Source: Fragilariopsis cylindrus CCMP1102
Taxonomy: Eukaryota > Bacillariophyta > Bacillariophyceae > Bacillariales > Bacillariaceae
Direction of reading: 5' to 3'
Assembly (NCBI GenBank): GCA_900095095.1
Contig: FMBT01000509.1
Span: 1-64,000, forward strand
DNA length: 64,000 nt
Below the pieces are notes generated by a model. That model did no database searches and was not told where the DNA came from. It worked only from the letters and a program-made list of their open reading frames with translations. Both the position numbers and the translations under genes were made by a program. Below, piece after piece: positions 12,550 to 50,239 of this stretch; the first letter of the stretch is position 1, and every line of letters starts with the position of its first letter.

Positions 12550-12945
12550 TGTTCGTGGCGCGATCAGACCCGTGCAAAAGTGTACATTTTTTTATCACTC
12601 CTACCGGTACCGGTAACCGCCGAGACAACAACGCGATCTATTCAAAAGCACGAGTAAAAGATTCGTGCTCTAAAAAGTTTTTTTGGTGCGTGAACTTATG
12701 ATTTCAGCATACATAGTTGGAGGAGTGAACAAAATATACTTCATTCCATTGTAGATTATTTAGTAAGAGATAGAGCAGAGGTCGCTGTTTTGAAAGATTG
12801 TTTGTCTATTTTTTGTGCTACGGTACAATGAGAAAATTGTACGGTATTTCCATGCGACAATGCATCATCACGCGACGCGCACCACATGACAAACTCAATT
12901 TAGGTACTCTAAAATTCGGTGAAAATGCAACATCAAATCGCATAT

Positions 12946-13024
12946 TTCGAATGGTCGATGGTTCAATCCCGTCTGGTTGGTTCATACCCAACTATAGCTC
13001 AGTGGTAGAGCGTTCGATTGCAGA
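12946..13024 (+). tRNA. Circularly permuted tRNA-Cys (anticodon GCA)
   Basis: The 3' half comes first. Anticodon 3' stem TCGAA 12947-12951, variable loop TGGTC, T-stem GATGG 12957-12961, T-loop TTCAATC, T-stem CCGTC 12969-12973, acceptor TGGTTGG 12974-12980, discriminator T 12981. Six bases (12982-12987) follow. Then the 5' half: acceptor CCAACTA 12988-12994, TA, D-stem GCTC, loop AGTGGTA, GAGC to 13011, G26, anticodon stem TTCGA 13013-13017, TTGCAGA with GCA at 13020-13022. Joined, the acceptor closes 7/7 (one G-U), D-stem 4/4, anticodon stem 5/5 and T-stem 5/5 (one G-U), giving 72 nt. U73, the GCA anticodon, G37 and a TATAGCTCAGTGGTAGAGC D-region are typical of eukaryotic tRNA-Cys. The B box (12960-12970) precedes the A box (12995-13005). 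The 37/38 join (A13024 or T12946 as base 38) is uncertain. Confidence 0.93.
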
Positions 13025-13025
13025 G

Positions 13026-13032
13026 TTTTTTT
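13026..13032 (+). terminator. RNA polymerase III terminator (T7)
   Basis: Seven consecutive T residues start four bases after the GCA anticodon of the permuted tRNA gene, where a pol III transcript should end. Confidence 0.8.
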
Positions 13033-45989: not shown

Positions 45990-48900
45990 TTAATGATGTT
46001 GTAATTTACCAGACATACCTGACATAGATTTAGTTTTACCATCCGGGATCATATACAATACAATAGGTTTATCTTTACTACCCCTATAGGGTGCATCCAC
46101 ACGATAAAATCCACGTCTTTCTAATTGAATCACATCACCAACCTTTAATGTTTTTAAATTAATATCACCAATCACATGAGTGGTTGCAATCGTATTCGGA
46201 TTGACATAATCTTCAAACTTATCACCATCTTCTAATTTTTCTTTTGTGACTAAATGATCAAATTCTGTTAATATAGCAGGACAATAATTTGTCGCTTTAA
46301 CTTTATTACTATCATCATCTGCTGCATCATCTACTGCAATCCATGAATATTTACGTTTCGTGGATTTGAAATCACCATCCGGAATTAATTCACCTTCTAA
46401 TTGATCCTCCTTTTTGGATGTAATCTTCACAACACCCCAACGTAACAAGACAATGTTTTCACCAACAATACAATCATCCGCATCAATTTTTTCTAATAAT
46501 ACTTTGGAGGATAATTTCATGGGACGTTTTCCCATTGTTGGATCCTTTGGATGTAATGATGTACTAACATATGTTTCATTATCATTTGTTGGAAAATTAG
46601 GAATAGTTAATGTGGAATTTGTCTTCGAATCAATGGCCATAAAACGACGTGCTGTTTTATCTAATTCTTTTTTATTTTCCGCCCAAAATGAATTCCAGAC
46701 CATATTCACCACACGTCGTGATGCACCTTGACTATAGATATAGGTCTTTAAGGCAGGAATGGAGACACCTCGACGTACCACACCCCGGACTGTGGGAAAT
46801 CGTGCATCATCCCATCCTGTTACTAAATTTTCATTGACAAACCATGTTAATTTACGTTTCGATAATAACGTGTATTGAAAATTCATTCGACAAAAGGAAT
46901 GGATCCGTACACGACGTAATCCCAATGTTTTCAATAAAAATTGATATTGTTCATCCCGATCATTATATTTCGGTGGTACGTAATGCGTGTGTTACACCCT
47001 CTAAGGAATCCACTATGGGACATGCTAAATCATACGTTGGATATGCTTTATGTGTAGTACCCGTACGATGATGGGGTGTTAAATTTTGTCGATACAGTAC
47101 CGGATCACGCATTGTACCATTATCTGATAACATATTAATTTTAGCACGTAAACACCATTGACCACCATTTTCGGATCCGGAACACATATCTAAAAATAAT
47201 AGTTTTGCTTCTTCTGGACTTTGTGTCGATCGATATTTTGATTCTTTTCGTTCCATCCGTTCCTCTTTCATTTGTTCTTGTGGTGTATCATCCATATAGG
47301 CTTGTCCCTTTGCAATCATTTGGAGTGCATATTTTTGTATGGCACTAATATAATCCGATGTATAGGTCAATACATCTCCTTTCACACCCAGTGTGGCCAG
47401 ATCTTCTAATATCGATTGTTGATATTCTTCTTTTTCTTTGGATGGATTTGTATCATCGAATCGTATGATAAGACGTCCCTGATAACGTTTGGCATAATAA
47501 TCATTTAATAGACAGGCTTTCGCATGTCCCACATGTAAATAACCAGATGGTTCTGGTGGAAAGCGTGTCACCACCTGTCCAGGAATGGCACCTTCTAATA
47601 AAGCCATACCAGAAACAAGTGGATCAAGTTTTGTTTCAGAAAATTGTGCCTCAGCATCAGTTGTTGCACTACCAGATGCAGCACCCACCGCTAATTGAGT
47701 TGCTTTCATTAATGCTGGATGTGAACGCATCATTTTAGTCCATCGTGTTGCAATAGGATAATCATCTTGATTCAATGATTCTAATACCGTTGTCTTATCT
47801 TGAATAGTACATGGAAAACCTAATGCCGCAAATAACGCAATATCCGCTAAAGATATTTTATGTCCACATAAGTAGGTACGTTTGGATAAGGCATATTCTA
47901 ATGTCGTTGCAATACCTTTTACTGCTTGTTCGGGATTTAATTGTAGTAAGGATTGTGAATATTCAATCCAGGCATTTTGTTCCGCACGTTCATTGGATGA
48001 GGATGTTGTCAGAACTTTGGAGGATGATGCAATACCACCATCTAATAAATATCGTGCACATGCCAAATCACCAACAATAGCTTGACCATTACTATCACCT
48101 AACATTGATTGTGGTACACGATGATCACTGGTAATAGTTAAATCAATATCAAAATCACATAAGCACGCCACAGCTAATGTAATAATAGGACGTTCATTCA
48201 TACGTACAACATTAGGATTAATGACCAATTGAAGAGGTTTGAGTTTAAATTTTGAAAGATTCGTCAGTGGTGGTGGACCACCATTCTCACTACCAATACT
48301 ACTACCGGATGATGATTTACCCTTGACAGCAGCAAGAACTGATACTATTGCCTTGGCGTTGTTGATTTTCGCGGCAGAGACACGTTTTGTCGCAGAAGTA
48401 TCCGCAGTGTCAGCGGCATCTGTAGCAGTAGCAGTAGCAGAAGGTGCACCAGTAGCAGAACTATCAGTAGTAATACCAGCTTTAAATGCCGCCTTCTTCG
48501 CTTCTTTTTCTGCTTTCTTGGCAGCTTTCTTGGCAGCATTTTTAGCACTTGCCATCACATTTACTACAGCCATAACGTTTGCTTTCTTTTTGTCAGTAGA
48601 TATAGTAGATTTACCATCTACACCAATTCCATTATTCAATACTGCAAATTTTGCTTTTGCGGCAAGTAGTTTTGCAACTAATGGATCCACAATTTTTTTC
48701 ATTTCACTCTTGTCTTCAATATCAGTCTTTGCTGATTTGATGGATCCACCTAAATCATCAATTTCTTTTTTCAGTGCATCCTTTTCAGCATCCGTATCAG
48801 TCGTTGCTGTAATAGTACCAGTTACCTCAGTTTCTTTACCTAATTCAACTTCCACGGCTCCGTCGTCAGTTTCCTTACTACTTAATTCAACTTCAGGCAC

Positions 48901-49065
48901 TTGTGCTGCAACAATTGATGCACGAGCCTTACTAACAGTCTCTTCTGCTTTACCTAAAATTCCTTCCGCTGTAGTTTTTGCTTGATTAATTTCAGTTTCA
49001 TGTTTGGCAGCAAATTCCGTTGCACCATCTTTGAGTTTCTCACCCATCTTTTTTAATGCATCCAT
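45990..49065 (-). CDS. Cytosolic glutamyl-tRNA synthetase (one frameshift)
   Basis: Starts MDALKKMGEKLKDG at ATG 49065; about 1,020 residues if the frame is repaired. Residues 1-240 are an Ala/Lys/Glu-rich coiled-coil-like extension. A GST-like region follows (SLADIALFAALGFP). The class I catalytic core has VVTRFPPEPSGYLHVGHAKA (the HIGH motif as HVGH), IIRFDDTNPSKEKEEY, YMDDTPQEQM, AYPTYDLACPIVDSLEG and, after the break, LLSKRKLTWFVNE (KMSKS motif), GWDDARFPTVRG and a beta-barrel anticodon domain. These match eukaryotic GluRS (with EPRS-like sequences) rather than GlnRS. The frame breaks inside THALRTTEY-NDRDEQ at the AAA of 46968-46970. As this enzyme is essential, an assembly indel is the likely cause. 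Confidence 0.92.
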
Positions 49066-50239
49066 CTTGCTTCTTTTTGATTCCTTTTTTTTGTTTCAGT
49101 ACGTTCAAAGATACTAATAAGTGATGTACGGTAAGGGATGTATTTCTTTCTTTTATCACAACAGCAACACAAGATATTCAATTCGAGAGCTTCTTGTCGC
49201 TATTCTTGTTACGTGTTTTGCACGTCCCGCACAAACGAACGGTTGTCGTTTCATTCGACTCAATCGATTGAATGAATGTTCATGTCGTCTTTCAGTCCGT
49301 CAGTATATTTTCTATTGTTTATTGACCCTACTGTAGAGTGCGCAGTGAACATTACTACCGTGGTATGCATGACGCGAACAAGCCTCAATCACACTTTGAA
49401 TTCAGAAGGAATCAATCGAATCAATCGAATTAACTATGAATCAATCGACAATCGAATCATCGATACGATCGAATCGATCAAAGCTATAGCTGTTGCACGA
49501 TAGATGGCGCTATACGATGCTAATACTACTAACAAAAGGCTAGTATAGCCTGGCATTTCTAACTATCTTATAATAGGGGGATGTTTGTAAAAATTACAGT
49601 GAAAAGAATGGACCTTCAACGTATATATGACAAAGCAAATCACTTCAGGTCTGGATGACATGCCATGTCATATACCGAGGGATTGTAGGATACAGGCGAC
49701 TAAACTGGTAGGCAAATAATAATTAGATATACAATAAATAAGATGAGAGAGAAAGGAGGAGTGGGGATAGAGATCAAAACAAACAACCACTGCTATCGCA
49801 TAAAACTTAGTCTTCCCGCCGGAGTGGAGTGTGAGTCAGTCGATTCGATACTCAATTCGACCTACTATTAGTACGGTAGAACGCACAATAATGATGACGA
49901 CAAATACGAATAACAAGATGAAAAAGATTTTGACCGAGAGAAAACAATTGATCCTATAAAATGCAATCGAGACTGCTGTCCGTGAGATATAAGACACAAC
50001 AAATAACCACTACTACTATTGGAGTTTTGAGTTGAGTTGAATTGAGTCGAGTCGAGTCTCAATTTGACCTACTAGCTAGAACGCGCGTAAAACAATTGAT
50101 CCTGACATAATAACTTGAATATGTGTGGAAACAAAATCCAAGTTCAAGCCAAATACATGTACATTACACTTTAGCTAGAGATAGAATTTACTACTACTGT
50201 ACTGTATAGTAATAGCCAATTTATTTAGAAGTTAATTAA
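49066..50239. other. Intergenic, no supported gene
   Basis: GluRS 5' flank and the 3' flank of the next gene. GAATCAATCGA-like repeats lie at 49400-49470, and a diverged duplicated phrase, with AACAATTGATCCT, lies at about 49870-50100. Confidence 0.55.

Follow-up and report, generated by a model that had tools for sequence, protein, structure and literature searches.

A candidate circularly permuted tRNA-Cys(GCA) gene, present in two copies with compensated acceptor-stem changes, in a diatom nuclear genome

Circularly permuted tRNA genes have been described from certain red and green algae, from nucleomorphs of algal origin, and from an archaeon. Thirty-four such genes, spread over six species of alga and a single archaeon, were listed in 2014 (PMC3978253), and permuted tRNA genes are also reported from a further chlorarachniophyte nucleomorph (PMC4494063) and from the green alga Auxenochlorella (PMC12633428). 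Among those listed are tRNA-Cys(GCA) genes permuted at position 37/38 in Ostreococcus lucimarinus, O. tauri, and Micromonas pusilla (PMC3978253, Table 1). As outlined in the same source, the red and green algal transcripts run from leader through 3′ half, linker, and 5′ half to trailer. The splicing endonuclease is the most likely enzyme to cut them at the junction, and the ends are ligated into a circle; the linker is then removed, a step in which RNase P and tRNase Z possibly act, and CCA is added (PMC3978253).

Here we analyzed a candidate gene of this kind in the window, i.e., the whole 64,000-nucleotide stretch of DNA presented above, and in the draft assembly to which it belongs. The diatom gene shares with the Ostreococcus and Micromonas tRNA-Cys(GCA) genes the isoacceptor, the order of the halves, and a junction in the anticodon loop, a likeness drawn from description rather than from sequence comparison. 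It differs in its linkers, which measure 6 and 7 bases in the two diatom copies compared to 26, 38, and 12 bases in the Ostreococcus and Micromonas genes, and in its host; Ostreococcus and Micromonas are prasinophytes, whereas here a diatom carries two copies in one genome. The permuted genes of Cyanidioschyzon merolae have the same half order and likewise a T run after the 5′ half (PMC3978253), and their circular precursor was shown by experiment; their junctions also fall in the D and T arms and they are preceded by TATA-like boxes that are not evident in the diatom copies. The same half order is described for permuted tRNA-Ser genes of chlorarachniophyte nucleomorphs, which differ in isoacceptor and belong to the green algal lineage (PMC4494063), and for the permuted tRNAs of Auxenochlorella, also of the green algal lineage (PMC12633428); the linkers of the Bigelowiella nucleomorph, at 5 bases, are as short as those of the diatom (PMC3978253, Table 1). 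Thermofilum pendens tRNA-iMet and tRNA-Tyr again share the half order (PMC3978253, Table 1), but unlike the diatom gene they have a T-loop junction, an additional intron, and an encoded CCA. No diatom or other stramenopile case was found in the partial literature covered on permuted tRNAs together with diatoms or stramenopiles (including PMC4090602, PMC8450103, PMC12633428, and PMC8007984). By its structure the gene would belong to a known kind, the anticodon-loop or type II permutation, in a lineage that is, as far as we have seen, new to it.

The locus lies on the plus strand of the window, to which all coordinates in the following description refer. The 3′ half (12947–12981; nucleotides 39–73) comprises the anticodon 3′ strand, the variable loop, the T arm with the B box, and the acceptor 3′ strand, and ends in the discriminator T12981. 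It is followed by the six-base linker TCATAC (12982–12987), which would form the acceptor-stem loop of the proposed circular precursor, and by the 5′ half (12988–13024; nucleotides 1–38) with the acceptor 5′ strand, the D arm with the A box, and the anticodon 5′ strand and loop. The anticodon GCA, as called on the rejoined halves, occupies 13020–13022 and is followed by G37. Upstream lies a leader (12935–12946), predicted to be part of the transcript, whose last seven bases (GCATATT, 12940–12946) are identical in both copies; downstream, the trailer GTTTTTTT (13025–13032) consists of a G and seven T and resembles an RNA polymerase III terminator. A sequence-only reading of the window had placed the 3′ half upstream of the 5′ half, six bases apart, with a run of seven T beyond the latter. 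Direct reading of 12947–13024 and of the trailer confirmed both, and the coordinates proved correct apart from one ambiguity: nucleotide 38 is T12946 if the tRNA is joined at 37/38, in which case A13024 is the first trailer base, or A13024 if it is joined at 38/39, in which case T12946 is the last leader base. The locus shows the features that define a circularly permuted tRNA gene, i.e., an upstream 3′ half on the same strand and a short linker between the acceptor ends, and a canonical or intron-containing tRNA gene is ruled out by the 5′ half not lying upstream of the 3′ half. A T run follows the 5′ half and none interrupts the linker in either copy, consistent with a single transcription unit; all 56 tRNA genes examined have at least four consecutive T within 30 bases downstream.

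When the halves were rejoined, ARAGORN called a tRNA-Cys(gca) of 72 bases with 7 acceptor, 4 D, 5 anticodon, and 5 T stem pairs. All 21 stem pairs that had been predicted, including two G-U pairs, were recovered in this fold, as were the expected discriminator U, the anticodon GCA, and G37. Rejoining at 37/38 and at 38/39 both yielded a tRNA-Cys call. In contrast, the same bases in genomic order gave no tRNA by ARAGORN, and the window as it stands contained none by ARAGORN or by Rfam at gathering scores. In standard tRNA numbering, the conserved nucleotides U8, A14, G18 G19, U33, U54 U55 C56, A58, and the discriminator U73 were all present.

Chance pairing of this extent had been judged implausible beforehand, and two null scans bear this out. 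Every stretch of the window was rejoined on both strands into 72-mers, with linkers of 1–40 bases and a spacer of 15 N between units. The 5,112,600 resulting units gave 38 ARAGORN hits, 35 of them at the permuted tRNA-Cys locus; the other three were 92–94 nt long and therefore run across the spacer into the next unit. Five dinucleotide-shuffled windows with linkers of 4–8 bases (3,196,100 units) gave a single hit, 96 nt long and also crossing the spacer.

We also built a covariance model of permuted tRNAs (R1) from 18 sequences, comprising the two real copies and 16 canonical tRNAs of the same genome whose halves were swapped in silico. R1 scored 74.9 bits (E = 8.1e-24) at 12947–13024 and 81.5 bits at the second copy, values that serve as consistency checks because each copy had itself contributed to the model. 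The only other match within the window reached 10.3 bits and covered a D arm alone. Applied to 19 loci, the model produced 53 matches, headed by a single gene represented twice (L014 and L069), then by the window gene (L013), and then by a bacterial locus (L081) at 65.3 bits. Ordinary neighbouring tRNAs reached 46.9 (L082), 45.9 (L078), and 43.5 bits (L080), and R1 scores below about 47 bits therefore mean little. Free-energy tests favour the tRNA only mildly. The folding energy of the rejoined tRNA had z = −2.69 and was matched or bettered by 3 of 200 shuffles; the minimum-energy fold of this tRNA departed from the exact cloverleaf in having three D-stem pairs and a lengthened anticodon arm. 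The z score was −1.23 in genomic order, −1.21 with flanks, and −1.07 and −1.18 for the two copies with longer flanks.

A similarity search of the window’s own assembly (a draft of 67.9 Mb in 818 contigs, with the window locus on contig C595) identified a second permuted copy on another contig, at C83:285803–285881 on the minus strand. When 3 kb around each copy were compared by blastn (E up to 1e-3), only 98 bases aligned, i.e., the gene and its edges. The copies are identical at 33 of 35 positions of the 3′ half and 35 of 37 of the 5′ half, and the four differences constitute acceptor pairs 1:72 and 4:69, each altered on both sides with pairing kept. All 58 positions outside the acceptor stem are the same. 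The C83 linker, GTGAAAC, is seven bases long, contains no T run, and matches TCATAC at one of six positions ungapped or four of six with one gap, an alignment in which C83 differs by one insertion and two substitutions; the C83 trailer reads TTGTTTTTTT. Across a 29-pair structure of the two copies, 98.3% of cells pair and four pairs are altered on both sides, compared to 28–48% pairing and at most one doubly changed pair when the partners were slid by one to three columns. A pair-shuffle control reached the observed value in 26 of 500 trials, which is close to the lowest proportion attainable with two sequences.

An unchanged body, acceptor-stem changes confined to whole pairs, and a more variable linker are the trace expected of selection on the folded, rejoined tRNA. 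The two copies with their compensated acceptor changes are sequence evidence that the permuted form is under selection, and they add to the permuted-gene interpretation a line of support that the sequence-only reading did not have. Many gene matches in this assembly are doubled, with the same score or the same letters on separate contigs (e.g., C581/C268, C90/C331, and C360/C781), as would be seen if both alleles had been retained; the two permuted loci do not form an allele pair of this sort, because their flanks do not align. The flanks may have diverged or one copy may have been inserted elsewhere, and the two copies fit either history. A 5S rRNA gene (L069:192–304, on C83) lies about 1.5 kb from the second copy.

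The sequences flanking the halves are consistent with a splicing substrate. The leader GCA (12940–12942) is able to pair with U33-G34-C35, and both longer transcripts, when folded to minimum energy, contain this pairing beside the anticodon stem. A tRNA-Ser(GCT) gene (L065; C62:187470–187573) shows that the genome also has ordinary substrates for tRNA splicing; in its 22-base intron, GCAA pairs with nucleotides 32–35 to form a four-pair anticodon-intron helix. The leader GCA of the permuted copies falls in the same register, with three of the four central pairs formed in both copies, and this register favours junction 37/38 over 38/39. The remaining pair, 32:i-3, is U-U in both copies; it is usually important for the eukaryotic splicing endonuclease. 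Further out, leader bases 12935–12939 are able to pair with the start of the trailer, giving four of five pairs at C595 (with one U-U mismatch) and five of five at C83, two of them compensated. Leaders taken at random from the window paired to the same extent with the observed trailers in 18% of cases for C595, 4% for C83, and 0.7% for both, in a register picked once the sequences had been inspected. This helix is absent from the C595 minimum-energy fold, and the C83 fold pairs in a different register. Given the post hoc register and the disagreeing folds, the leader-trailer helix is supportive rather than decisive; leader and trailer may form the helix expected of a tRNA-splicing substrate, as a relaxed bulge-helix-bulge-like motif.

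The region upstream of the two copies (−50 to −26) has an A+T content of 0.68 and 0.64, and the window mean is 0.63. The same region in 46 canonical tRNA genes of the genome averaged a higher 0.761 (sd 0.105), so that the stretch before the permuted copies is not notably rich in A+T, with 11 of the 46 at or below 0.68 and 8 at or below 0.64. The upstream regions of 43 distinct canonical tRNA genes are AT-rich but showed no clear positional motif. In the permuted order the A box follows the B box.

The assembly was searched for a canonical tRNA-Cys gene, the finding of which had been named in advance as grounds for rejecting the permuted reading, and none emerged from similarity searching or from two pattern scans of the draft. 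The rejoined tRNA, used as a DNA query in a search that scores only the best candidates, matched the two permuted loci and nothing else, with two pieces at each. A pattern of the 5′ half (T8 to anticodon, up to three mismatches), which is also able to recover a tRNA-Cys interrupted by an intron at 37/38, gave four matches in the assembly and no collinear tRNA-Cys; these were the two permuted loci and two places with TGGA instead of TGCA (L017 and L018), neither of which ARAGORN called a tRNA. An anticodon-arm pattern (up to one mismatch) gave 16 matches, none a tRNA by ARAGORN. Control patterns, reversed in the case of the 5′ half, gave three and two matches, respectively. Within 70 loci examined, ARAGORN called 65 tRNA genes, and none was a tRNA-Cys. 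An RF00005 search of the assembly scored 63 of 2708 candidates and so provides no evidence that a tRNA-Cys is absent. Plastid PsaA and PsaB had no match in the draft assembly, which may also lack a collinear tRNA-Cys gene. On balance, the permuted genes are probably the only kind of cytosolic tRNA-Cys gene in this diatom. One tRNA-Phe(GAA) gene (L025; C782:1808–1880), on a 12-kb contig, is unlike the other tRNA-Phe genes seen and looks organellar by eye.

Three other explanations of the locus can be weighed against this evidence. The two loci could be dead relics, i.e., remnants of tandem tRNA-Cys copies whose outer halves have disappeared, with a working collinear gene missing from the assembly. 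Such duplication and loss is one proposed origin of permuted genes (PMC3978253), and the fragmentation of the assembly into 818 contigs, its lack of plastid PsaA/PsaB, and the small share of candidates scored with RF00005 all leave room for a missing gene. Relics would, however, not be expected to keep pairing, yet all four differences between the halves are compensated acceptor changes and the 58-position body shows no difference between the copies, which lie in flanks that fail to align; the pattern scans also found no collinear gene. We therefore regard this explanation as improbable, though it is the least improbable of the three.

Two dispersed copies with unrelated flanks would also be expected of a tRNA-derived mobile element (SINE-like) or of a tRNA-like structure unused in translation. 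This is harder to reconcile with a 67.9 Mb assembly in which only two places matched (in a DNA search that scores the best candidates only), with copies that have no common sequence beyond leader and trailer, and with the retention of anticodon, G37, discriminator U, and pairing, and we consider it very improbable. Chance juxtaposition or an assembly error is favoured only by the draft state of the assembly, and it is opposed by the rejoining null scans and by a C83 copy with the same arrangement in a different setting of acceptor stem, linker, and flanks; its probability appears close to negligible. The interpretation of the locus as a circularly permuted tRNA-Cys(GCA) gene is supported by the sequence evidence. 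Very likely, the locus is a functional gene with the anticodon-loop (type II) permutation, one of a pair found in this diatom nuclear genome, and it probably represents the sole kind of cytosolic tRNA-Cys gene.

A maturation route like that known from red and green algae (PMC3978253) is proposed for this permuted gene. RNA polymerase III would transcribe leader, 3′ half, linker, 5′ half, and trailer as one RNA, in which leader and trailer would pair around the anticodon to give a bulge-helix-bulge-like substrate. The splicing endonuclease would cut both ends within the anticodon loop and a tRNA ligase would join them into a circular precursor, from which RNase P and RNase Z would excise the linker; CCA would then be added. 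Evenly balanced, in our estimation, is the further proposal that permuted genes supply all cytosolic tRNA-Cys of this diatom, that cysteine decoding in the cytosol hence depends entirely on a circular RNA, and that leader and trailer co-evolve as a splicing substrate.

We searched the genome for enzymes of such a pathway. Exon 1 of one gene (L071) matched the tRNA-splicing endonuclease family PF01974 at 8.2e-9, the only match to this family in the genome, and exon 2 matched no Pfam family; L071 probably encodes a tRNA-splicing endonuclease subunit. The ligase RtcB had no match in this genome, and the control was found in 9 of 14 genomes. The fungal ligase family PF08302 matched nowhere, controls included, and is hence uninformative. 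According to a review, diatoms have Trl1-type ligases (PMC4090602). Elsewhere in the window, 45990–49095 on the minus strand carries a class Ic tRNA synthetase (glutamyl/glutaminyl type) split over two overlapping frames, in which the catalytic domain is preceded by a glutathione S-transferase C-terminal domain.

The earlier description of the DNA as a diatom-like nuclear genome is upheld by silicon transporters (27 matches to the family in the assembly), a large light-harvesting family (104 matches), and one Lhcr protein (L084). Against chains of solved structures, the latter matched 6ly5_A at 295 bits, 6l4u_5 at 282 bits, and 8zeh_G at 211 bits, whereas further chains scored no more than 180 bits; we take these three to be FCPI chains of diatom (Chaetoceros and Thalassiosira) photosystem structures. 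A second light-harvesting protein (L083) was rejected as a diatom marker, since its best matches lay outside diatoms, to 9vfj chains (171 bits and less), and FCPI chains scored at most 82 bits. Taken together, a diatom is the most likely host. To judge from translations read by eye, contig C419 carries reading frames for cox3, cob, and nad and looks mitochondrial.

Permuted-looking tRNAs were also sought with a gapped tRNA-Cys pattern in public collections (eukaryotes not among them), which returned three stretches from viral contigs and two from genome contigs. Two of these (L080 and L082) turned out to be ordinary neighbouring tRNAs. A stretch of Paenibacillus piri (L081:3287–3361, minus strand, NZ_SMRT01000010.1) is a bacterial lookalike of a permuted tRNA-Cys(GCA), scoring 65.3 bits with R1 as given above and yielding no tRNA by ARAGORN. 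Its 3′ and 5′ acceptor strands are complementary with about four bases between them, and its leader CATCGAGG is complementary to its trailer CCTCGATG. The rejoined halves matched only themselves in the P. piri genome, along with one 23-base stretch at 87% (L105) that ARAGORN did not call a tRNA. This locus could be a relic; in the literature covered, no paper names both permuted tRNAs and Paenibacillus. Two 276-kb IMG/VR contigs contain permuted-looking tRNA pieces (L078:4310–4370, minus strand, and L079:3504–3563, plus strand; 41 and 39 bits) with T arm, acceptor 3′ strand, linker, acceptor 5′ strand, and D arm, spanning model positions 10–67 and apparently sitting between the halves of another tRNA. 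They are only a lead, because ordinary neighbouring tRNAs reach 47 bits with R1.

A diatom case adds the stramenopiles, which are distant from both red and green algae, to the lineages with permuted tRNA genes. It suggests a wider origin or persistence of the trait than the listed cases show, with such genes overlooked by ordinary tRNA finders; in this window ARAGORN and Rfam were both blank. The interest of the case lies in its lineage, in the coexistence of two copies with compensated changes, and in the seeming absence of an ordinary tRNA-Cys gene. Should the flanks of the copies have come to differ through divergence and not through insertion, the permuted state would be old in the lineage. 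Genetic tools exist for diatoms, and if an essential tRNA exists only in permuted form here, the use of such genes would become directly testable in these organisms.
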